A stretch of DNA of 21,526 nucleotides from a virus. The stretch lies in the IMG/VR virus record IMGVR_UViG_3300017971_000828, positions 1 through 21,526 of that record. One strand, given 5' to 3'. Position 1 is the stretch's first letter. Every line of letters starts with the position of its first letter. Of this stretch, positions 6,375 through 21,526 are shown piece by piece. A program made the translations under genes and the position numbers. Below the pieces are notes generated by a model that worked only from the letters and a program-made list of their open reading frames with translations, was not told where the DNA came from and made no database searches.

Positions 6375-6689
6375 ATGGGGACTAAAATAATTAAGGTATT
6401 GAAGTGGTTTGACAGGTGGATGCCTGTTGCTGCGGTTTCCATAGTTGCCGTAGCATCTGTCTCTGCGGGGGTATATAATATATTATGTACTAACAGGGTA
6501 GGTGTCGGTTTAATAGCTTTAGGTGTTGGTGCATGGTGTGTGTACTTTGGTATCAACGATGTTAAAAGGAGCAAAGAAGATGAAATTAAGGATAAAAGAG
6601 AGGCTAATAAATCTTCTCAAAACGAGGTACGAGAAGAAACTGGAGAGGTACGTTCAAGCGTTGGAGAACAACATAGAACATCTGAATAA
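6375..6689 (+). CDS. two-helix membrane protein with charged tail, 104 aa
   Basis: The ATG start (MGTKIIKVLKWFDRW) is preferred over an earlier TTG at 6351, which lies within the promoter. Two membrane helices follow, about residues 16-37 and 42-60, and then a long hydrophilic cytoplasmic-type tail rich in Lys, Glu and Ser. The tail is encoded by bases that are shared, out of frame, with the next gene. A holin-like role is conceivable from topology and size but unsupported by any motif. An internal ATG at 6420 is an alternative start if a leader is required. Confidence 0.65.
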   Translation: MGTKIIKVLKWFDRWMPVAAVSIVAVASVSAGVYNILCTNRVGVGLIALGVGAWCVYFGINDVKRSKEDEIKDKREANKSSQNEVREETGEVRSSVGEQHRTSE

Positions 6690-6774
6690 GGTAATTGAGG
6701 AACAAGAAAAGAGGTTGGAGAAACAAAAGAAACGGACTTACTATAAGCAGAAGTCTAAAGTAAATGCTAACTAA
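6580..6774 (+). CDS. basic coiled-coil protein, 64 aa
   Basis: The start at 6580 (MKLRIKERLINLLK) is chosen because AAGGAG lies 8 bases upstream, a rare clear ribosome-binding site in this window; frame-compatible starts at 6523 and 6559 lack one. The protein is almost entirely one charged heptad-repeat helix (residues 5-55) rich in Lys and Glu. It overlaps the tail of the membrane-protein gene by 110 bases in another frame and the next gene by 11. The pairing of a membrane protein with a coiled-coil partner is suggestive of a membrane-associated complex. Confidence 0.6.
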   Translation: MKLRIKERLINLLKTRYEKKLERYVQALENNIEHLNKVIEEQEKRLEKQKKRTYYKQKSKVNAN

Positions 6775-7045
6775 AGCTCAAATAGAAGAGTTAGGCTGGG
6801 CAGAATCATCTAAGGGTACGTACTTATTTGAGTCAGTTGATGAACAATACAGATGTTGGGTAATGCAGACTTTAGAGGATAAGTGCTACATATACGGGAT
6901 GCCAAGTGACCAACCTTTAGTCGGGGAGGACGTACCTGGCAAGATCAAGTATGATGGTGATGTTGACAGTCAAATGGAGCTTTATGATATAATGGTTAGT
7001 GTGGGTGTTTTACCAAAGGAGGAAAAAGATGAGTATGTACAATGA
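6764..7045 (+). CDS. hypothetical acidic protein, 93 aa
   Basis: Starts MLTKAQIEELGWAESSKGTY, overlapping the coiled-coil gene by 11 bases. An opening helix is followed by a beta-rich centre (TYLFESV, YRCWVMQTL, KCYIYGMP) and an acidic C-terminal helix. The LGW...GTYLFE opening recalls short uncharacterised phage proteins, but I cannot name a family. It is the only gene in the window to end in TGA. Its last 17 bases overlap the following gene. Confidence 0.65.
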   Translation: MLTKAQIEELGWAESSKGTYLFESVDEQYRCWVMQTLEDKCYIYGMPSDQPLVGEDVPGKIKYDGDVDSQMELYDIMVSVGVLPKEEKDEYVQ

Positions 7046-7199
7046 GAAAGAAAGGGAGATGCACATCAAATTAGCAGAATTAGCTAAGGCGGCTCAGGTT
7101 GAATGTGCGAAGATAGCTGCTCAGGCAGCCGTTGAAGTTGCCCTAATAAATAATGGGTTGTTAGGTATTGAAATTTTGGAACAAAGGAAAATTAAATAA
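7029..7199 (+). CDS. hypothetical Ala-rich helical protein, 56 aa
   Basis: The start at 7029 is set by AGGAGG at 7017-7022, an excellent ribosome-binding site six bases upstream, rather than the earlier GTG at 6999. The product, from MSMYNEKEREMHIKLAELAK to QRKIK, is one long Ala-rich amphipathic helix, with AKIAAQAAVEVALI in its centre. It could pack as a helical bundle or lie on a membrane. No family is recognised. Confidence 0.6.
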   Translation: MSMYNEKEREMHIKLAELAKAAQVECAKIAAQAAVEVALINNGLLGIEILEQRKIK

Positions 7200-7209
7200 G
7201 GGAGGAATT

Positions 7210-7356
7210 ATGGCACGTTATAGATGTTATAAGATTAATGAACCGGTTAAGCCTAAGAGAATTAAATGGCCTAAGCCGGTAGAAGAAGAAATCGAGGTTA
7301 TCAGGGTCGTGAGAGTCTGTGAACCGAAGGTTATTTTTATTGAATGTGAAGATTAA
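7210..7356 (+). CDS. hypothetical basic protein, 48 aa
   Basis: The start at 7210 follows GGGAGG by four bases. The product MARYRCYKINEPVKPKRIKW continues PKPVEEEIEV and ends in a beta-like VIFIECED. It has a Pro/Lys-rich first half, an acidic second half, and three Cys that do not form CxxC pairs. It lies between tightly spaced neighbours (10 bases before, 4 after). The function is unknown. Confidence 0.6.
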   Translation: MARYRCYKINEPVKPKRIKWPKPVEEEIEVIRVVRVCEPKVIFIECED

Positions 7357-8173: not shown

Positions 8174-8551
8174 ATGAACGAGTTTGGGAAGAATATTAAG
8201 AGCGAGAATTTATACACGGAGTACGTGCGTATTTTAAATGGTTTGTTGCAATTGTCAGATCGTGAAGCCGAGTTGTTTGCATTGTTACTTAAGGTTGATT
8301 ATGAATGGGAGCCTAAATTGGGGGAACCTAAAAATATTCTCAGTACCGATATTCGTCGTGCTATTATGAAGGAAACTTTGGTTAATAAAAATAACCTGAG
8401 TAAATATATCAAAGTTCTCAAGGAAAAGGGAGTATTGATGAAGACTGATGATGGTTACGAAGTACGGGAGATGTTTGTCCCCAAACTTACAGGTGGCTTG
8501 TTAGAAGTTGTGTTCGCATTGGACACACGGGACAGACAAGACTTTACCTAA
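8174..8551 (+). CDS. putative winged-helix DNA-binding protein, 125 aa
   Basis: Residues 15-40 (YVRILNGLLQLSDREAELFA) form helix 1-2 of a winged-helix unit. NILSTDIRRAIMKETLVNK (about 53-71) and NNLSKYIKVLKEKGVLMKT (about 73-91) follow, the latter resembling a recognition helix and wing (S/T-x-Y-I-K-x-L-x-x-x-G-V-L). A C-terminal strand-helix segment ends the protein. Similar small winged-helix proteins occur next to the packaging module of crAss-like phages, as far as I recall, and a switch role between early and virion genes would fit the position. The gene is followed by the structured RNA region. Confidence 0.65.
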   Translation: MNEFGKNIKSENLYTEYVRILNGLLQLSDREAELFALLLKVDYEWEPKLGEPKNILSTDIRRAIMKETLVNKNNLSKYIKVLKEKGVLMKTDDGYEVREMFVPKLTGGLLEVVFALDTRDRQDFT

Positions 8552-8552
8552 T

Positions 8553-8637
8553 CCCCCTCCCTTGGTTCCCGGTCGTGGGGGTCGCGTTTGTACTACCGCC
8601 TTAGTGCGTTAAAGTTGTAGGAGCGGCCCTTTACGAC
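8553..8637 (+). ncRNA. candidate structured RNA / leader
   Basis: This GC-rich intergenic segment can fold as a nested element. An outer stem pairs GTCGT (8572-8576) with ACGAC (8633-8637), extended by GGG (from 8577) with CCC (8627-8629). A middle stem pairs CTAC (8593-8596) with GTAG (8617-8620). An inner hairpin pairs CGC (8597-8599) with GCG (8606-8608). Alternatively CCCCC (8553-8557) pairs with GGGGG (8577-8581), which excludes part of the outer stem. It lies just upstream of the 60-aa gene. It is not a tRNA. Whether it is a terminator, leader or small RNA cannot be decided from sequence. Confidence 0.4.
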
Positions 8638-8650
8638 TAATCACAGTAAA

Positions 8651-8833
8651 ATGGCTGATAATCAAATAGTACATAATCTATATTTAAAATACAGGAAGGA
8701 TAAAAGGGTGGTACGCAAAGTGATGCATCACCCTATTCTTTTTGCTAGGAATAGAATAGTGGATGAAGAGGATTGGCAGCCAGTCAGAATACGATATTTT
8801 GGGGCTTTTGTGCTGAAAAATAAGCGGGTATAA
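8651..8833 (+). CDS. small HU/IHF-like DNA-binding protein (tentative), 60 aa
   Basis: The product runs MADNQIVHNLYLKYRKDKRV, a helix, a short loop, then VRIRYFGAFVLKNKRV. The RIRYFGAF segment echoes the conserved (G/R)FGxF turn of HU/IHF proteins, and the helical N-terminus with a strongly basic character fits the abbreviated HU-like proteins found near the packaging genes of many phages. At 60 residues it lacks the long DNA-clasping arms of true HU. It lies between the structured RNA and promoter copy D. Confidence 0.5.
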   Translation: MADNQIVHNLYLKYRKDKRVVRKVMHHPILFARNRIVDEEDWQPVRIRYFGAFVLKNKRV

Positions 8834-8852: not shown

Positions 8853-8882
8853 GTAACCTTTGTATAGGTTTTTACGTAAAGG
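8853..8882 (+). promoter_or_regulatory. phage promoter element, copy D (degenerate)
   Basis: GTAACC (8853-8858) is followed by TTTTACGTAAAGG with ACGTA at 8874, one base further than in copies A-C. The -10 core is TAAAGG rather than TATAMT. The inverted repeat AACCT (8855-8859) / AGGTT (8866-8870) with a T run downstream could also serve as a weak terminator for the preceding gene. The predicted transcript start coincides with the ATG at 8890. Confidence 0.45.
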
Positions 8883-8889
8883 TAAGTAT

Positions 8890-9852
8890 ATGGAAGCGTC
8901 TGTTATAGTAGGTTATCATAATGAGGCTGGGTTAGTTCAGCTCCTATTAGAGTCTATAGATGAGTCCATAAGGAACAGGATAGAGGTGATCCTTGTTGAT
9001 GATGCTTCGGAAGCTACGTATGATTATAGTTACGATGGTGAAATAAAGCTTATCAGGCTAAAGGAGAGAAGAGGTATTGGGCATGCATTTGACGTAGGTG
9101 TCTGGCACGCGCGCGCGGATAATATAATATTATGTGGGGGCGACATTGTTTTCAAGGATAAACTTTGGCTGGATTACTTTCTGGCAGATCTTATCCATGA
9201 CGATGAGGCTATAATTTGCGGTAAATGCCTTAATTTACACGAGCACGCTTGGGATATAAATGACCCCGGTTTGGTCGAAGGTTATGGGGCACGTATAATT
9301 CCTTTTGTCACTAGTGAGGATGTGCCTAATTCTCCTGAGGATTTTAAGTCAGTTTTTCAAACCAGGTGGTTAGCTAAACCTTTGGGGGAAGATTCTGTTG
9401 TTGAAGTACCTTGTGTACTTGGTGGTTGTTACGCCATTAAGAAAAAATGGTATGAGTACTTGAGGGGATTTGAAGGACATTTGTATTGGGGAACTTTAGA
9501 GCCTTATATTAGTATCAAAAATTGGATGTTTGGCGGTAGCAATAAAGTGGATACAAGGATTGAACATGGTCATTGGTTTATCAATAAGGGGAGTAGGTTT
9601 ACGGTAGAGCGGTGGCATATTGTTTATAATAAGATATTAGTAGCTTTTGTGTTGGGTGGGGACCTGACGCCAGAGCTAGTTGACAGTATTAAAATGATTA
9701 GTGGTCACGATGTGGCTGCTGAAAAAGCGTTAAAAGACGTAGAGAAAATCAGGGAGCTAAGGGACTATGTTGAGGCTTTTAAAGTTAAGAGCCTATCTCA
9801 ATATATAGCATGGCAAAACTCTTTGATATACAAGCAGGGAAAATCACAATAA
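8890..9852 (+). CDS. GT-A glycosyltransferase with polypeptide GalNAc-transferase-like motif order
   Basis: The 320-aa enzyme starts MEASVIVGYHNEAG, so strand 1 of the GT-A fold is at the very N-terminus. HNEA (10-13), VILVDDASE (33-41), ERRGIGHAFDVG (59-70), GGDIVF (83-88), LGGCYAIKKKWY (177-188), WGTLEPYISIKNWMFGG (200-216) and EHGHWF (225-230) follow in the same order as in GT27 polypeptide GalNAc-transferases (HNEA, VDDASE, DxH, GG, WGGE...W..GG, GH.F). The metal-binding DxH position reads GGD, so its first Asp is missing. The substrate is unknown; the enzyme would use a nucleotide sugar. It sits next to the packaging genes and overlaps the next gene by 43 bases. An upstream TTG at 8860 is unlikely. 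Confidence 0.8.
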   Translation: MEASVIVGYHNEAGLVQLLLESIDESIRNRIEVILVDDASEATYDYSYDGEIKLIRLKERRGIGHAFDVGVWHARADNIILCGGDIVFKDKLWLDYFLADLIHDDEAIICGKCLNLHEHAWDINDPGLVEGYGARIIPFVTSEDVPNSPEDFKSVFQTRWLAKPLGEDSVVEVPCVLGGCYAIKKKWYEYLRGFEGHLYWGTLEPYISIKNWMFGGSNKVDTRIEHGHWFINKGSRFTVERWHIVYNKILVAFVLGGDLTPELVDSIKMISGHDVAAEKALKDVEKIRELRDYVEAFKVKSLSQYIAWQNSLIYKQGKSQ

Positions 9853-10367
9853 GCGAGGAATCCCTGGCTATCCCGCCTTTTAAGGTACTATGGGATAGAG
9901 ACAAGACTAAAACTAAAGATAGGGCGACGAGGGAAATATCATTCGTGGCCTTTCTGTGTGACTATAAGTCACCTTACTTTGAAGCTTACCCCGAGGACCA
10001 ACGACTGAAAGTTCTCAAGGGTGATTTTTTAGGGGACGAGGATTATGAACTTGATGAGCTCTTGGAGAACGCAATCGAGCGTTACAAGGAGTTTAGAGAG
10101 ACGACTAATACTCGTCTTTTGCGTGCTGGTAAGTTTGCTGCCGATCAATTGACAGACTGGTTTTTTGGTGTTAACCTTAATAAAAAGGATAGGGAGGGCA
10201 GATTCGAATATACAGCTTCTGATGTGAGTCGAAATTTGAAAGAGATTGGCGGTATCGTCAAGTCTCTTGATATGCTTGAACGACAGGTACAGAAGGAGCA
10301 ACTTGAACAGAGTCGCGCACGTGGTGGTTCTGAGATTGGTGATTATGAAATACCAGATGAAGACTAA
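9810..10367 (+). CDS. conserved pre-terminase protein, candidate small terminase subunit, 185 aa
   Basis: Starts MAKLFDIQAGKITISEESLA, overlapping the glycosyltransferase gene by 43 bases. The recognisable core is IPPFKVLWDRDKTKTKDRAT (21-40) followed by FLCDYKSPYFEAYPEDQRLK (about 48-67), a pattern I recall in the protein encoded just upstream of the large terminase in crAss-like phages. The second half is helical, with AIERYKEF and LLRAGKFAADQLTDWF, and ends in a charged Glu/Arg/Asp-rich tail. Position and helical content suggest a small terminase or packaging factor, but no DNA-binding domain is obvious. Coupled downstream by TAATG. Confidence 0.65.
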   Translation: MAKLFDIQAGKITISEESLAIPPFKVLWDRDKTKTKDRATREISFVAFLCDYKSPYFEAYPEDQRLKVLKGDFLGDEDYELDELLENAIERYKEFRETTNTRLLRAGKFAADQLTDWFFGVNLNKKDREGRFEYTASDVSRNLKEIGGIVKSLDMLERQVQKEQLEQSRARGGSEIGDYEIPDED

Positions 10368-10522
10368 TGGGAAATTTGTACGTAAGAATAGAGGAACTAA
10401 AGGAACAATGTGAGTATTGGGGATTTAATTTCAAGGAGTATGTTAAATCTTTCAGAAGGCAGTATCCAGATATCGAAATAATAGGGGGAGAAGAAATTGA
10501 TAGGTTACAAGAAGGTCAATAA
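10367..10522 (+). CDS. hypothetical small protein, 51 aa
   Basis: The product MGNLYVRIEELKEQCEYWGF continues NFKEYVKSFRRQYP and an acidic IIGGEEIDRL. It is coupled upstream by TAATG and overlaps the terminase gene by 26 bases. A short helical protein of this type is often found between the small and large terminase genes, but no family is recognised. The opposite-strand frame across it (10452-10856) is a shadow. Confidence 0.6.
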   Translation: MGNLYVRIEELKEQCEYWGFNFKEYVKSFRRQYPDIEIIGGEEIDRLQEGQ

Positions 10523-12518
10523 TAGTGATAAGTTTAGGCAAGCGGCCATTAATTTTCAACGCATGGGGTTCTATACTGCAGCCCCTCGTGGCACTACTGC
10601 TTATAAGGAATATTGGAATGAAGAACGTCGTCGTTGTATAGAAGGGTATACGGCTGAGGACGGTGATTTCATAACTGGTTATAATTATTTTTATGTCAAT
10701 TATTGTCAGATTATTATTGTCAAAGAAAAAGAAGTAACGCTCAGAAGTGGCCAAAAGAAAACTATAAAAGCTAGGGAGAGAGGGTTCCCCAAGTTTTATG
10801 ATTGGGACTACTATTTCTTTAATGCAGTAGAAGAAGCCGAGACACAGGGCAAACACCTAGTTGTGTTGAAAGCTAGGGGTAAGGGCTACTCCTTTAAGTG
10901 TGCTTCCATGTTGTGCAGGAATTTCTACTTGATACCAGAGAGTAATTCTTACGCCATCGCCGCTGAAGCTGAATTTTTGCTCAAGGATGGTATTTTAACC
11001 AAGGCGTGGGACTTCATGGATTTCGTGGATGCCAACACAGCTTGGTATAAGAAACGTCAAAAAACTGACACCAAAATTCATAAGCGTGCGTCTATAGTTA
11101 TTGATATTGATGGTGTTAAAACAGAAGTCGGGTACAAGTCGGAGATCATGGGCATCACCCTTAAAAACGACCCGCAGAAAGCGCGTGGTAAAAGGGGCAA
11201 GCTCATACTTTGGGAAGAGGCCGGTAAGTTTCCTGGGCTCAAACAAGCGTGGCAGATCGCGCAGCCGTCGGTCGAGGAAGATGGCGTAGCCTTCGGTCTG
11301 ATGATCGCATTCGGTACTGGTGGTACTGAAGAAGGTGACTATGAAGGGCTGAAAGATTTGTTTTATGAGCCAGACGCTTACAATGCTTTACCATTAGAGA
11401 ATAGTTGGGATGAAGGAGCTACTAAACCTTGTGGTTTTTTTGTTCCTGAATATGTCAACATGACCGTTGAAGATGAGGGAAAACCTCTCATGGACAAGGA
11501 CGGTAATTCTGAGCTACTACTAGCCAGGGCTTTTGCTACAAAGAAGCGTCAAATAGTAGTAGAAAATGCTAGTGATAAAAGAGCTGTTGACAGGTATATA
11601 GCAGAGAGACCGTTTACTCCTATGGAGGCCACTCTGCAGTTGTACGGTAATATTTTCCCAAAAACCGAATTAGCCAGGCATCTAGCGTACATAAGGACCC
11701 ATAAGGATATAGCAAATTATAAGCAGGTTGGGGATTTGATTTTCAGTGCTGATGGCGAATTAAATTGGGTACCAGCTAGTTCACCAAAAGACATAACTAA
11801 ATATAAGCTTACCCGCGACGACGACCCATCAGGCCAGATTGTTATATGGGAACACCCGGTACCAGATCCCCCTTATGGTTTATATATAGCCGGTTGCGAC
11901 CCCTATGACCACGACAAGGCCGGGACTGATTCTTTAGGTTCTACTTTTGTTTATAAGCGGTTCCAAGATTTCGAATCTTACTTTGATGTTATAGTGGCTG
12001 AGTATACTGGCAGGCCAGATACTGCTGAAGAGTACTATGAGAATGTCAGAAAATTGATGATATATTATCGTGCTACTGTTTTATTCGAGAACGAAAGAAA
12101 GGGTATTTACCCGTATTTCCAGTCTAAGAGTCAGGATTATTTGCTTGCTGATCAGCCAGATTATATCAGTGAGATTATAAAAGACAGCAAAGTTCAACGT
12201 AGAAAAGGTGTACACATGGTTCAGGGCATCAAGGATTGGGCCGAGATACAGATACGGGACTGGTTGAATGAGGAGCACGAACCTGGGAAGAAAAATATTA
12301 CAAGGATATTATCGGAACCATTACTAGAGGAATTAATATCCTACAATGACGAAGGCAACTTTGACAGAGTCATTGCTTTAATGATGATAATGATTTATAA
12401 AGCACAACTTCATCATCTTCATGTAAAGAAAAAGGAGGGAATAGAAAAGAATAGAAGATTAATATTAGATGATGGCTTATTTAGGGATTATAAAAAATTA
12501 CCACAATCGTGGTTATAA
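10497..12518 (+). CDS. terL: terminase large subunit
   Basis: This ATPase-nuclease motor, 673 aa, packages DNA through the portal and cuts the concatemer. Visible motifs are a variant Walker A (KARGKGYSFK, about 125-134), a Walker B (KLILWEEAG, about 235-243), a coupling motif (MIAFGTGG, about 269-276), and RNase H-type nuclease acids at AGCDPYDHDKAGTDS (about 465-479), FENERKG (530-536) and NFDRV (621-625). An insert-like segment AYKEYWNEERRRCIEGY (35-51) opens the protein, as in crAss-like terminases. The chosen start is TTG at 10497, with GGGGGAG seven bases upstream; the first in-frame ATG at 10563 would remove residues 1-22, which look conserved. It is preceded by a 26-base overlap and followed by the portal gene. 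Confidence 0.93.
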   Translation: MIGYKKVNNSDKFRQAAINFQRMGFYTAAPRGTTAYKEYWNEERRRCIEGYTAEDGDFITGYNYFYVNYCQIIIVKEKEVTLRSGQKKTIKARERGFPKFYDWDYYFFNAVEEAETQGKHLVVLKARGKGYSFKCASMLCRNFYLIPESNSYAIAAEAEFLLKDGILTKAWDFMDFVDANTAWYKKRQKTDTKIHKRASIVIDIDGVKTEVGYKSEIMGITLKNDPQKARGKRGKLILWEEAGKFPGLKQAWQIAQPSVEEDGVAFGLMIAFGTGGTEEGDYEGLKDLFYEPDAYNALPLENSWDEGATKPCGFFVPEYVNMTVEDEGKPLMDKDGNSELLLARAFATKKRQIVVENASDKRAVDRYIAERPFTPMEATLQLYGNIFPKTELARHLAYIRTHKDIANYKQVGDLIFSADGELNWVPASSPKDITKYKLTRDDDPSGQIVIWEHPVPDPPYGLYIAGCDPYDHDKAGTDSLGSTFVYKRFQDFESYFDVIVAEYTGRPDTAEEYYENVRKLMIYYRATVLFENERKGIYPYFQSKSQDYLLADQPDYISEIIKDSKVQRRKGVHMVQGIKDWAEIQIRDWLNEEHEPGKKNITRILSEPLLEELISYNDEGNFDRVIALMMIMIYKAQLHHLHVKKKEGIEKNRRLILDDGLFRDYKKLPQSWL

Positions 12519-12543: not shown

Positions 12544-14928
12544 ATGGCAACAATTTCACCATATACATTGGTGCCTTTTCCAGTGCAAAAGTTACCTCTG
12601 TCAAAAAAGAATAAAGATTGGAGGGAAACGAGCGTTGATGCTATAATTGCTCGCGAGGCCACCACAGGAGTTGTCGGTGGTCAAACTCGTGTAGACCGTA
12701 TGCGTATAGCGTACGATCTCTATAACAGTGTATTCGACGAAAAAGATCTCAAATATGTAACGGACCCGTACAAAGTTGAGGATGGATTTCCAGCATCTTT
12801 GCAGAATTTCAACATTATTAGGCCTAAGGTTGACCTTCTGTTAGGAGAGGAAAGCAAGCGTCCTGACAGTATAAGAGTTATACAAACTAATGAGGATGCT
12901 GTCAGCAAGGTTCAGCAGGAGCGTAAGGATTTGCTTATGAATTATGTAAGTGAGCGAATCGGCGAAATGCTGAGTGGCGGTAGTGCCAATCAACTTGCTA
13001 CTGAGGAACAACTATCGGAGATTGAAAATTATATGTTGTATGACTATAATGATATTGTAGAACAACAGGCATATCATACTTTGGAATATTTACGTGAAAA
13101 TCTTAAGTTACGCAATGAATTCCTTAAAGGTTGGAAAGATGCTCTCATAGCTGGTGAAGAGATTTATTACATAGGAACGGTATTTGGGGAGCCTATTTTA
13201 GAAAGGGTTAATCCCATGCGTTTCTCATATGATCCTGATCCGGATTTAGAATTTATTGAAGATGGTGATTGGGCTCTTAGGAAAATGTACTTGAGCCCGG
13301 CATCGATCTATGATAGATTTAACGACATAATGACACCGTCTGATCTTGATAAGGTATTAGATTTGGTAGGTCAGGGACCACAGTCTTCTTCTCAGACATC
13401 CGGTACTGGTAGTGAAGTTAATACTCAGACTATTTATTATAGGGATAGAACTCATAGCGAACTTTCCAGGGAAGAAAATTTGGAAGGGACTTTGATAAGC
13501 GTTTGGCATGCCGTATGGAAGTCTTTTAAGAAAGTTGGGTTCTTGAATTTCATTGATCAAAATGGCGAAGAGCAAGAGATGATCGTGGATGAGACCTATA
13601 AACCTGAAGAAGGTGAGGATATAACTTGGGATTGGATTATAGAAGTTTGGGAAGGATATAGGATCGGTGAGGATATTTATGTTGGGATACAACCCGTTGA
13701 ATATCAGCATGTGTCTATGGACAATCCTAATGCTCAGAAATTACCTTATACCGGAGTAGCTTATAGTAAGACGAATGTTAAGAGTAAGTCTCTTGTTGAT
13801 ATAATGAAGCCACTGCAGTATATATATATTGTAGTATGGTATAGACTAGAATTGGCTTTGTCTAGGGATAAGGGTAAAGTTCTTAATATGGACGTTACTC
13901 AAATACCTAAATCTATGGGTGTAGACTTTAACAAGTGGGCCCATTATTTGACAGCTATGGGTGTTAATCTCATTAACCCATATGAGGAAGGATGGGATAT
14001 ACCAGGTCGTGAAGGTGGTAAGCCGTCAACATTTAATCAAATGTCTTCTCAGGATCTCAGTATGACTGCAGCTATTGCAGAGTATATTGAGCTGATGAAT
14101 AAAATTGAAGAGATGGCTGGCGAACTTTCCGGGGTTTCTAAGCAACGTCAAGGAGCTATTGAAACAAGAGAGTTAGTAGGGAATGTCGAAAGAGCAGTTA
14201 TACAATCTTCGCATATAACCGAACCCTTGTTTTGGTTACATAATCAAGCTAAACAACGTGCGTTGACATTATTGTTAGATTGTGCTAAATCAGCATGGTC
14301 TAATAGTGGTAGGAAATCACTGCATTATGTCTTGGGTGATTTTTCCAGGGCTTTGATAGATTTGGATAGTGACTTTTTGTACTCAGATTTGGCTGTATTT
14401 GTTTCGGATTCTACTAAGGAAAATAGGGAAATAGAGACACTTAAGACCCTGTTACAACCTGCTATGCAGAATGGAGCTACTCTTATGGATGCTGCTAATA
14501 TACTGACTAGCGACAACATGACTCAAATTAAGCGTAGATTAGCTGAGATAGATAAGCGCAGAGAGAGAATAGAGAAACAAGCAGCAGAGCGTGAGCAAGA
14601 AATGCAAATGCAAATACAGCAGATGCAGGCTGAACAAGTAGCTGAAGATAATAGAATTAAAGAAGAGGATTCTATACGTAAAGCTAATACCGCCATTGAG
14701 GTGGCACTGATAAACGCTGACTCCAGAGAAGGGGGAGGCGAAGAAGATAATTCCTCTGAACGTGAGAAGTTGAGTTTGCAACGAGAGAAGCAGACTTCCG
14801 AGGTTGAATTAAAGAGCCGTCAGCAACGAGAGGATGAAAGAAAAAATAAGAGGGCTGAAGCCCAACGACAACAGGAAATTGAGATAAAGCGTAAACAGGC
14901 TAATAAACCTGTTACTAACAGTAAATAA
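12544..14928 (+). CDS. portal protein
   Basis: This 794-aa protein should form the dodecameric DNA channel at the capsid vertex, the dock for terminase and neck. Evidence is its position directly after terL and before a scaffold-like gene, its size (crAss-type portals are about 800 aa), and internal segments typical of portals: VNPMRFSYDPDPDLEFIEDG, SKSLVDIMKPLQYIYIVVWY, and MAGELSGVSKQRQGAIE near residues 525-540. From about residue 660 a long Gln/Glu/Lys/Arg coiled-coil tail follows, ending in RKQANKPVTNSK. The start has the AATAATTATGG context shared by virion genes. No transmembrane or enzyme motif is present. Confidence 0.88.
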   Translation: MATISPYTLVPFPVQKLPLSKKNKDWRETSVDAIIAREATTGVVGGQTRVDRMRIAYDLYNSVFDEKDLKYVTDPYKVEDGFPASLQNFNIIRPKVDLLLGEESKRPDSIRVIQTNEDAVSKVQQERKDLLMNYVSERIGEMLSGGSANQLATEEQLSEIENYMLYDYNDIVEQQAYHTLEYLRENLKLRNEFLKGWKDALIAGEEIYYIGTVFGEPILERVNPMRFSYDPDPDLEFIEDGDWALRKMYLSPASIYDRFNDIMTPSDLDKVLDLVGQGPQSSSQTSGTGSEVNTQTIYYRDRTHSELSREENLEGTLISVWHAVWKSFKKVGFLNFIDQNGEEQEMIVDETYKPEEGEDITWDWIIEVWEGYRIGEDIYVGIQPVEYQHVSMDNPNAQKLPYTGVAYSKTNVKSKSLVDIMKPLQYIYIVVWYRLELALSRDKGKVLNMDVTQIPKSMGVDFNKWAHYLTAMGVNLINPYEEGWDIPGREGGKPSTFNQMSSQDLSMTAAIAEYIELMNKIEEMAGELSGVSKQRQGAIETRELVGNVERAVIQSSHITEPLFWLHNQAKQRALTLLLDCAKSAWSNSGRKSLHYVLGDFSRALIDLDSDFLYSDLAVFVSDSTKENREIETLKTLLQPAMQNGATLMDAANILTSDNMTQIKRRLAEIDKRRERIEKQAAEREQEMQMQIQQMQAEQVAEDNRIKEEDSIRKANTAIEVALINADSREGGGEEDNSSEREKLSLQREKQTSEVELKSRQQREDERKNKRAEAQRQQEIEIKRKQANKPVTNSK

Positions 14929-16155: not shown

Positions 16156-17625
16156 ATGGCAATGGAAAACAATGTTTTAAATAGCCTAGTTCTGTATAAA
16201 TCTAAGTGGTTCTCCGATTTGGTTGATGAGTCGATGCTGTCGAATGCTCTCATGACCAAGCCACATGAGGTGTCTACTATTCTTTCATACGTTTTTGGAC
16301 GTTATGAGGGTAATACTGTAGACTTCCTTACCATGGGTCTTGGAAAAACTATTGAGATTGAAAGCAGACAGTATGAATGGCCGTTGATGATTGAATTTGA
16401 CAAGGCTGTTCCAATCGTCGATGCTAAGTGGCAAGGCGCCAGTATTTCTTCTGGTGACACTCCAGGTCTTAATCAAACTCCTATCCAGATTTGGGTACGT
16501 GAGAAGTGGTTCGGTCCTGGCGCTATTATAGCATTTGATGATCGTGAGTATCAAGCTCGTGTTACAGGCGATCCTTATCAGGATGGCGAATATTTTGTAT
16601 ACACCGTGTTTGTTGCCGATGGTCAAGCCGATTCATTCATCTTGCCTTCGCTTTTAGCCGCAGGATCAAAGATCAGTAGGGAAGGTTCTGCTTACGAGGA
16701 ATACAGCGAAGAGGCTGATATCGTCAACTACCCGACGCCGTTTAAGCTGCGCAATCAGCTTACCACGATGCGTTTGAGTTACGATATTACCGGATCCGCT
16801 GTTAGCACAGTTATGGTTATAGCTATGCGAGATCCTCAATCAGGTAAGAAATCTTTCTTATGGTCTGATTATCAAGAATGGCGGGCACTCCGTCAGTGGT
16901 ATGAAACCATTGATAGGTGGCTTGTTTATTCAAGGTACAATTCTAATGCAGACGGTACTACAGATCTTTCTGGAACTACCGGACGTCCCGTTTATATCGG
17001 TGCTGGCTTGCTTCAGCAAATAGCACCTGCTAATAAGCGGTATTACACAACTCTGACCTTAGATTTGCTTGATGAATTCTTGTCAGATCTGTCTTATAAC
17101 ATTCTAGGCAGAGGCGAAAGAAAGTTTGTTGCTCTTGTCGGTGAAATGGGTATGCGCGAGCTCGATAGAGTTCTTCGTGCTAAAGCTACTGGGTACAGCC
17201 TGGTAGACACTCATTTTGTAACTGGCACAGGTCAAGATTTGACCTTGCAGGGTCAGTTTACGACTTACAAGGGTCTGAACGGCATCGAACTCACACTTAA
17301 GCACTTCCCGTTTTATGACAATACTGTCTATAACAGGAAGTTACACCCAATCACAGGTAAGCCGCTCGAGTCTTACCGCATGACCTTTATTGATTTTGGA
17401 ATGAGAGATGGTGAACCCAATCTCATTAAAGTTATCCGTAAAGATCGCGGTCTCGTGATGTGGCATACTGGTGGTTCTGTTGCTCCAGGTTCAGGACATG
17501 CGAAATCTATTAACACCCTGCGTTCTAACGCTAAGGATGGCTATAGTGTGCATTTCTTGTCTGAGCAAGGGCTAATGCTTAAGGATCCCACAACCAGTGG
17601 TGAACTTATTTGCGATGCAGAATAA
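16156..17625 (+). CDS. major capsid protein
   Basis: 489 aa, matching the length of crAss-like major capsid proteins (about 490). Starts MAMENNVLNSLVLYKSKWFS after a TTATT spacer. The sequence shows the extended N-arm, then a beta-rich body with IEIESRQYEWPLMIEFDKAV (about 68-87) and a C-terminal block GYSVHFLSEQGLMLKDPTTS (about 464-483) that I associate with HK97-fold capsids of this group. It assembles into the head shell around the scaffold. It is followed by a strong hairpin, which would make this the most abundant message. Cleavage of the N-terminus cannot be judged. Confidence 0.9.
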   Translation: MAMENNVLNSLVLYKSKWFSDLVDESMLSNALMTKPHEVSTILSYVFGRYEGNTVDFLTMGLGKTIEIESRQYEWPLMIEFDKAVPIVDAKWQGASISSGDTPGLNQTPIQIWVREKWFGPGAIIAFDDREYQARVTGDPYQDGEYFVYTVFVADGQADSFILPSLLAAGSKISREGSAYEEYSEEADIVNYPTPFKLRNQLTTMRLSYDITGSAVSTVMVIAMRDPQSGKKSFLWSDYQEWRALRQWYETIDRWLVYSRYNSNADGTTDLSGTTGRPVYIGAGLLQQIAPANKRYYTTLTLDLLDEFLSDLSYNILGRGERKFVALVGEMGMRELDRVLRAKATGYSLVDTHFVTGTGQDLTLQGQFTTYKGLNGIELTLKHFPFYDNTVYNRKLHPITGKPLESYRMTFIDFGMRDGEPNLIKVIRKDRGLVMWHTGGSVAPGSGHAKSINTLRSNAKDGYSVHFLSEQGLMLKDPTTSGELICDAE

Positions 17626-20380: not shown

Positions 20381-20761
20381 ATGGCAACAAATGAATATCA
20401 AATTCAGAGGACAGCCAAGGCTTCGTTTACATTACCAAGCTCGACGGCAACCTCGAATATTACATCAGATGCGTATATACCAACCGGAGCGCTTATTACT
20501 AACATCCGGATAGTTGCACCATCTGCTGTAACTACAACTAATGCCTCACACACTGTTGTACCAAGAGTTGGTACAGCTAATATATGTGCTACTGTTAATG
20601 TATCAGATCTGCCCGCAGTCACTGTTGGTGACACCACGGCGCTGCTTTCTGATGCTCATTATGTAACAGCAGGAGGTCTTTTGAACCTGCAGTGTGCAGC
20701 CTGTACTACAGCTGTGACGGCAACATATGATTACTACGTAGATTATCTCTTCGCAGGCTAA
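20381..20761 (+). CDS. Ser/Thr-rich capsid-decoration-like protein, 126 aa
   Basis: A small all-beta-type protein beginning MATNEYQIQRTAKASFTLPS. About a quarter of residues are Ser or Thr (22 Thr by count), with VTTTNASHTVV in the centre, and only two aromatic clusters, near the termini. Two Cys near residues 104 and 107 (CAAC) are the only Cys pair. Small beta-sandwich proteins of this size near capsid genes often decorate the head. It is followed by a strong terminator. The next gene encodes a glycosyltransferase, so it is a candidate acceptor for O-glycosylation (inference). Confidence 0.55.
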   Translation: MATNEYQIQRTAKASFTLPSSTATSNITSDAYIPTGALITNIRIVAPSAVTTTNASHTVVPRVGTANICATVNVSDLPAVTVGDTTALLSDAHYVTAGGLLNLQCAACTTAVTATYDYYVDYLFAG

Positions 20762-20824: not shown

Positions 20825-21526
20825 ATGGAACCAAGAATAATAGGAGAAAGTACTGTTGGGTTGCATAATTCTGATTTAGATAAATCTATTGAACGCGTGG
20901 ATAATTCCATGATGTATGAAGATTTGTCTACTATTATTATATGTCCAACAAGGGGAACATTTCCCACGAGAGTAGTTCAGTCGTGGATGAAAATGTTGAA
21001 ACCAATGAATCAAGTTGTGGCAGGACCGATCTTTGCGGAAGCAATGAAAGTCGATGTTGCCTACAATTCTTTGATTACATACATACTCAATAATGAGTAT
21101 CTAAGTAAGTTTAAGTACATACTTACTATAGAAGAAGATAATTTGCCCCCTGTAGACGGTTTGATAAAACTGTATGAGGGAATGAAAGAATATGACGTTG
21201 TTGGTGGACTATATTGGGGCAAATCTGAACATGGTTTTCCAATGATATTTGGAAATCCAGAAGTGGGACCGGAGGATAATCGCCCGCAGACACCAATTCT
21301 TGATGGATTGCAAAGGGCTAATGCTCTCGGTATGGGGTTTAACCTCTTTAAGCTTGATATGTTTAGGAACGTAGAAGAGCCGTGGTTTAAAACCGTACAG
21401 GAATATACAGGAAAAGGTGTTGAAGAGTTAACTCAAGATTTCTATTTTTATAAGAAAGCCGCTAAAAAAGGTTATAAATTTGCTTGTGATACCAGAATTC
21501 TGGTAGGACATTACGATAGTAAAGCA
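20825..21526 (+). CDS. GT-A glycosyltransferase, partial at the window edge
   Basis: The frame runs 234 codons to the window end with no stop, starting MEPRIIGESTVGLHNSDLDK. After a leader of about 35 residues comes STIIICPTRGTFPTRVVQSW, the first strand of a GT-A fold. ILTIEEDNLPP (about 99-109) resembles the DxD-like metal-binding loop. VVGGLYWGKSEHGFP (about 124-138) and ALGMGFNLFKLDMF (about 165-178) follow, then LTQDFYFYKKAAKKGYKFAC and ILVGHYD, the acceptor/catalytic region and conserved His of phage GT2 enzymes. The terminator upstream separates it from the decoration gene. The sugar donor and acceptor are unknown. Confidence 0.75.
   Translation, partial: MEPRIIGESTVGLHNSDLDKSIERVDNSMMYEDLSTIIICPTRGTFPTRVVQSWMKMLKPMNQVVAGPIFAEAMKVDVAYNSLITYILNNEYLSKFKYILTIEEDNLPPVDGLIKLYEGMKEYDVVGGLYWGKSEHGFPMIFGNPEVGPEDNRPQTPILDGLQRANALGMGFNLFKLDMFRNVEEPWFKTVQEYTGKGVEELTQDFYFYKKAAKKGYKFACDTRILVGHYDSKA

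Follow-up and report, generated by a model that had tools for sequence, protein, structure and literature searches.

What would an enzyme resembling animal GT27 glycosyltransferases do next to the packaging genes of a phage? The question is raised by one open reading frame, here called GT1, in the stretch of viral DNA analysed in this work (21,526 nucleotides, referred to as the window). A preliminary description had noted in GT1 the motif order of polypeptide GalNAc-transferases (GALNTs) and called the enzyme GT27-like. Protein-initiating enzymes of the GT27 type are best known from animals and protists, and our searches of open-licence papers turned up no description of a phage enzyme resembling them.

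Gene content of the window

The window represents a 21.5-kb virus contig from a crAss-like phage, with terminase large subunit (TerL), portal and major capsid proteins (MCP) that match crAss families. GT1 is encoded by an open frame on the plus strand (8890–9852) that gives 320 aa counted from the ATG; translation might also begin further 5', from a TTG at 8860. Just 5' of it lies a small ORF of 60 aa (8651–8833, +) without PHROG match, which has a similar counterpart in the related contig L007. Downstream, all on the same strand, follow the conserved crAss gene phrog_16390 (9810–10367), the TerL gene (10497–12518; phrog_6681, E=5e-143), with at most 63.5 % identity to Besingivirus cr118_1 (Suoliviridae), the portal gene (12544–14928; phrog_6547, 2e-166) and the crAss-like MCP gene (16156–17625; PF23898, 6e-184). 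A 126-aa putative decoration or head protein (20381–20761, +) is encoded directly 5' of a second glycosyltransferase gene (20825–21526, +; phrog_12406 glycosyltransferase, 3e-7; phrog_1574, 2e-9), the 3' part of which is cut by the contig end.

A further contig (L001) carries a copy of the enzyme identical to GT1 in unchanged ORF order, while the 43-kb contig L007 shows the same gene order with a GT1 that is 56–58 % identical and a terminase that is 88 % identical. In the window and in L007, GT1 stands one gene 5' of TerL, in agreement with the packaging-gene adjacency described earlier, and the single gene in between is phrog_16390. The 3' end of GT1 overlaps the conserved start of this gene by 43 bases in the window (the last 14 GT1 codons, in another frame) and by 58 bases in L007. 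Because the N-terminus of the downstream protein is much alike in phages without GT1, the tail of GT1 overprints the start of an older gene. As a minor observation, a non-coding stretch of 37 nt, ACCTAATCCCCCTCCCTTGGTTCCCGGTCGTGGGGGT, is identical between the window (8546–8582) and L007 (9664–9700), whereas the coding DNA around it has diverged between the two phages. It showed no significant RNA fold.

Sequence and fold relationship to GT27

The motifs HNEA (residues 10–13), VDDASE (36–41), WGTLEPYISIKNWMFGG (200–216) and GHWF (227–230) are present in the order that had been claimed, and alignment to 1xhb bears out that seven of 17 positions are identical to the GALNT1 segment WGGENLEISFRIWQCGG (W, G, I, S, W, G, G). 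When the single GT1 sequence was searched against the PDB with phmmer, GALNT4, GALNT12 and GALNT1 came first (E=6e-8 to 3e-7), a similarity that at the sequence level is far beyond chance. With a profile of ten phage GT1 homologs (A8), the 16 best PDB sequences all belong to GT27, from 1e-18 (GALNT10) to 2e-9, and in nearly all of them the match spans the catalytic domain. Other enzymes, GT2 among them, rank lower (best 4e-8) and are matched mainly over the first 100–140 residues.

In Pfam, the only significant match of GT1 is Glycos_transf_2 (PF00535, 5e-13), an N-terminal half that it shares with CAZy GT2 enzymes of the chondroitin synthase and SpsA type. Viewed as a GT2 enzyme, GT1 lacks the first Asp of the DxD motif and has a Glu at the base position of the (E/D)D motif, and its match to GT27 is the better one. 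First rank in the PDB is not phylogeny, since GT27 structures are numerous there. Mere database bias is nevertheless argued against by two phage GT2 enzymes used as controls (L059:3170–3865 and L008:3986–4798), which behave differently: for both, the top match is chondroitin synthase, and a GALNT appears no more than once, weakly and over the N-terminal part. Judged against PDB sequences rather than in a tree, the catalytic domain of GT1 resembles GT27 more closely than GT2, and the profile search thus speaks against the opposite placement considered earlier.

Structure prediction, which had been suggested as a check, also puts GT27 enzymes on top. The AlphaFold model built from A8 (pLDDT 83, pTM 0.85) has GALNTs as all of its best 50 listed PDB matches, with E around 1e-15 and a query TM of up to 0.72, at an identity of just 16–21 % in the Foldseek matches. 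The best matches in the viral library were phage and giant-virus GT-A proteins at 9–17 % identity. A model built from two sequences was poor (pLDDT 43) and was set aside. The GT27-like kinship proposed in the preliminary description is therefore borne out by sequence profile and by fold, whereas the control phage GT2 enzymes do not show it. The closest solved relatives of GT1, as judged from sequence and model, are animal and parasite enzymes that start mucin-type protein sugar chains (GALNT1, 2, 4, 10 and 12, Toxoplasma GalNAc-T3). They have in common with GT1 the GT-A fold and, in order, HNEA, VDD, PxxxG[GA], WG...S..W..GG and GHxF.

The phage enzymes differ from GT27 in their size of about 315–370 aa, and the ricin-type lectin domain usual at the C-terminus in GT27 (PMC4202792) was not found in GT1. 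A transmembrane helix of sufficient hydrophobicity was likewise not found in GT1 (best 19-residue mean 1.42). The approximately 90 residues after GHWF are predicted to be mostly helical in the AlphaFold model.

Residue pattern and distribution of the phage family

The GT1 family was gathered by a search for the pattern EPYxxxKxWMxG and a scan with a five-sequence alignment, yielding ten members. Three are crAss-like (window, L007 and L065), three belong to a non-crAss tailed-phage lineage (L067, L068 and L069/G021), and the remainder are L064 from a 308-kb jumbo phage, L062, L063/G022 and L066/G020. H10, D37, D38, D85, W200, G201, E204, K210, W212 and H228 are invariant in all ten.

In GALNTs, the Asp and the His of the DxH motif bind Mn2+ together with a further His (PMC11074326). 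The earlier reading of this site as GGD in GT1 is confirmed by the alignment, where D85 falls on the His of DxH. Across the family the position reads GGD, GSD, ACD, GCD or GAD, and the first Asp is absent in every member; the metal-site His of GHxF is kept as H228. The WGGE(N/Q) position reads WG[TSC]LEP in ten out of ten, with Leu for Glu and a Glu one residue on. This Glu, E204, is also retained in two remote members and falls, in the alignment, on the Asn/Gln that follows WGGE in GALNTs. Since it occupies the position of the base Asp in the (E/D)D motif of inverting GT2/GT7 enzymes, inverting chemistry of GT1 is possible.

Identity as a polypeptide GalNAc-transferase is hence not upheld: DxH and the WGGE glutamate are absent family-wide, an invariant Glu sits at the base position of inverting GT-A enzymes, and the lectin domain was not found. 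GT1 is a phage-clade enzyme related to GT27, short of full GT27 membership. The same residues would suit an enzyme that extends an existing glycan on virion proteins, with a sugar as acceptor and E204 as the base of an inverting reaction, as both the invariance of E204 and the missing first Asp of DxD/DxH would fit. The overall fold and the second half of the sequence, however, are nearest to GT27, a protein-initiating retaining family, and we regard glycan extension as distinctly unlikely.

A remote relative, the annotated glycosyltransferase gp2 of Tunturiibacter phage Tunturi_4 (PP885687), resembles GT1 in the second half (23 % over 143 aa) and retains E204 and H228, and its gene lies between TerL and portal. 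It alone has a GT27-type metal motif (DNH), which the ten members lack, its N-terminal half is very divergent, and Tunturi_4, unlike the phage of the window, is a siphovirus of Acidobacteriota.

Just four of the crAss-like contigs examined carry GT1, namely the window, L001, L007 and L065. Neither GT1 nor another Pfam glycosyltransferase 2 match was found in three crAss reference genomes, and no GT1 relatives were found in the bacterial genome contigs scanned with two alignments. Weak matches in human-faecal phage scaffolds and in a 462-kb phage were rejected, as they had the look of common GT2 enzymes encoded amid further sugar genes. A small family tree with weak deep support does not place the window and L007 as sisters of L065; as the L065 gene also lies at a different genomic place, the two crAss-like groups likely acquired GT1 separately.

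Genomic neighbourhood of GT1 and its relatives

Location in late modules recurs across the family. In L065, GT1 is found directly 3' of the p19334 gene, behind head genes, a slot that in other crAss-like phages holds the 126-aa protein, the second glycosyltransferase and a methyltransferase. In the non-crAss lineage (L059/G021 and two relatives), GT1 opens a cassette before TerL and portal, with the MCP next in G021, and the cassette comprises GT1, a partner gene, a PF00535 (GT2) gene, a GT11-type gene (PF01531), a methyltransferase gene and other genes. In L062 and L058 this partner gene and a methyltransferase gene come after GT1, and in G022 three genes precede GT1: one for a virion structural protein, one of 2072 aa and a small one. 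The GT1 gene of the jumbo phage L064 overlaps a UDP-glucose/GDP-mannose dehydrogenase gene and has no recognised structural genes adjoining. G022 furthermore encodes a second, more distant GT1-like copy (L061 9096–11921) away from recognised structural genes and two genes from a Cpn10-like chaperonin gene (4e-7).

The partner gene encodes 248–264 aa directly 3' of the GT1 homologs (L062 10947–11711, L058 4917–5663, L067 5332–6102, L068 10993–11787, L059 1626–2399). No Pfam match was found in those scanned and no significant relative in the PDB; its C-terminal HDGLSNTVCEMG pattern looks GT-B-like by eye only. In L007, a rhamnosyl O-methyltransferase/CmcI-like gene (6531–7250; PF04989, 6e-31) lies 2.7 kb 5' of GT1; it is not seen in the window.

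Many phage glycosyltransferases of known role act on cell-surface glycans. GT1 might accordingly alter a host surface glycan or a lipid-linked precursor in the manner of serotype conversion or exclusion, keeping progeny from re-adsorbing to lysed or infected cells. Such a role would agree with the CmcI-like gene of L007 and with a weak match to the GtrB-like phrog_841 (E=0.01; 0.001 for the best alignment member). This match is limited to the generic N-terminal part, though, and in contrast to GtrB-type enzymes GT1 is without transmembrane segments and sits in packaging and structural modules of several phage lineages, which makes a surface-glycan role unlikely in our view, if less so than glycan extension.

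The second glycosyltransferase

Relatives of the second glycosyltransferase were found at 18 loci (L019–L036), 16 of them on environmental contigs with a crAss capsid gene. It lies 3' of the MCP gene wherever both are visible and is followed by a methyltransferase gene at all but one of the loci, the exception ending at the gene itself. In most crAss-like loci a gene similar to that of the 126-aa protein precedes it, and in L016 paralogous copies of this gene flank the glycosyltransferase-methyltransferase pair. An unrelated podovirus carries a relative between two methyltransferase genes, 3' of the MCP gene and three glycosyltransferase genes. GT1 and the second glycosyltransferase showed no homology to each other (hhalign probability 0.1 %), and the latter together with its methyltransferase seems to form a glycan cassette in its own right, spread across the lineage.

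Another possible role of GT1 would be to glycosylate modified DNA bases as a protection against restriction. The terminase gene, two genes on, would offer a link to DNA packaging, and phage DNA glycosyltransferases are diverse according to what PMC12619734 cites from Pyle et al. 2024. The nearest relatives of GT1 act on proteins, however, and the genes that accompany it in structural modules encode methyltransferases and a GT11-type enzyme. A thymidylate synthase/hydroxymethylase-type match (PF00303) was absent from the window, the relatives and three crAss genomes; this negative weighs little, because these contigs are incomplete and cr125_1, which has a gene annotated as thymidylate synthase, gave no match either. 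We consider DNA as acceptor very improbable.

Proposed role in virion glycosylation

The position in late modules alone does not fix the acceptor of GT1. Our best reading, based on genomic context and put at an even chance, is that GT1 glycosylates virion proteins. It fits best because one phage has two glycosyltransferases in its structural half, because pairing with methyltransferases recurs, because GT1 and the second glycosyltransferase exchange at one slot, and because a membrane anchor is absent. The protein acceptors proposed in the preliminary description thereby become plausible from structural-module position in several lineages, the second glycosyltransferase, the methyltransferases and the lack of a transmembrane helix. 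Counting against a virion role are the rarity of GT1 and the placement of the L064 gene and the second G022 copy away from recognised structural genes.

From this context we infer that GT1, a soluble and probably metal-dependent GT-A glycosyltransferase, is probably made late, alongside packaging and head proteins, and would move a sugar from a nucleotide-sugar (a UDP-sugar by analogy) onto protein side chains, probably Ser/Thr. The acceptors would be phage virion proteins, modified in the cytoplasm either ahead of assembly or while it proceeds. The second glycosyltransferase and the methyltransferases of the relatives would extend, cap or separately add glycans, as might the GT2 and GT11 enzymes of the one other lineage. 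The outcome would be a glycosylated virion, with possible effects on adsorption, stability or recognition.

Found beside virion genes in several unrelated phages, GT1 relatives suggest that such phages glycosylate their own particles. A clearly related phage family would represent a prokaryotic-virus branch of the GT27 lineage and provide small soluble enzymes for study. More tentatively, and as a possibility rather than a probability, it would be a family of protein-initiating O-glycosyltransferases that shares ancestry with the animal mucin-type GALNTs, has a rebuilt metal site ([GA]xD plus His) and catalytic motif, and glycosylates crAss-like and other virions in concert with methyltransferases and distinct, chain-extending glycosyltransferases. 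If virion proteins are the acceptors, glycosylated particles would occur in Crassvirales, to which some of the commonest phages of the human gut belong, and this would have consequences for adsorption and recognition.

A precedent exists in mycobacteriophages, whose capsid and tail proteins are glycosylated by phage-encoded enzymes (PMC12363180, PMC12619734). Che8, Corndog and Myrna are phages with such virion glycosylation. Homology of Che8 gp108–110 to GT1 and to the second glycosyltransferase was not detectable. By eye, Che8 gp108 (L051 6172–7347) joins a glycosyltransferase to a methyltransferase-like domain, echoing the glycosyltransferase-methyltransferase pairs described above.
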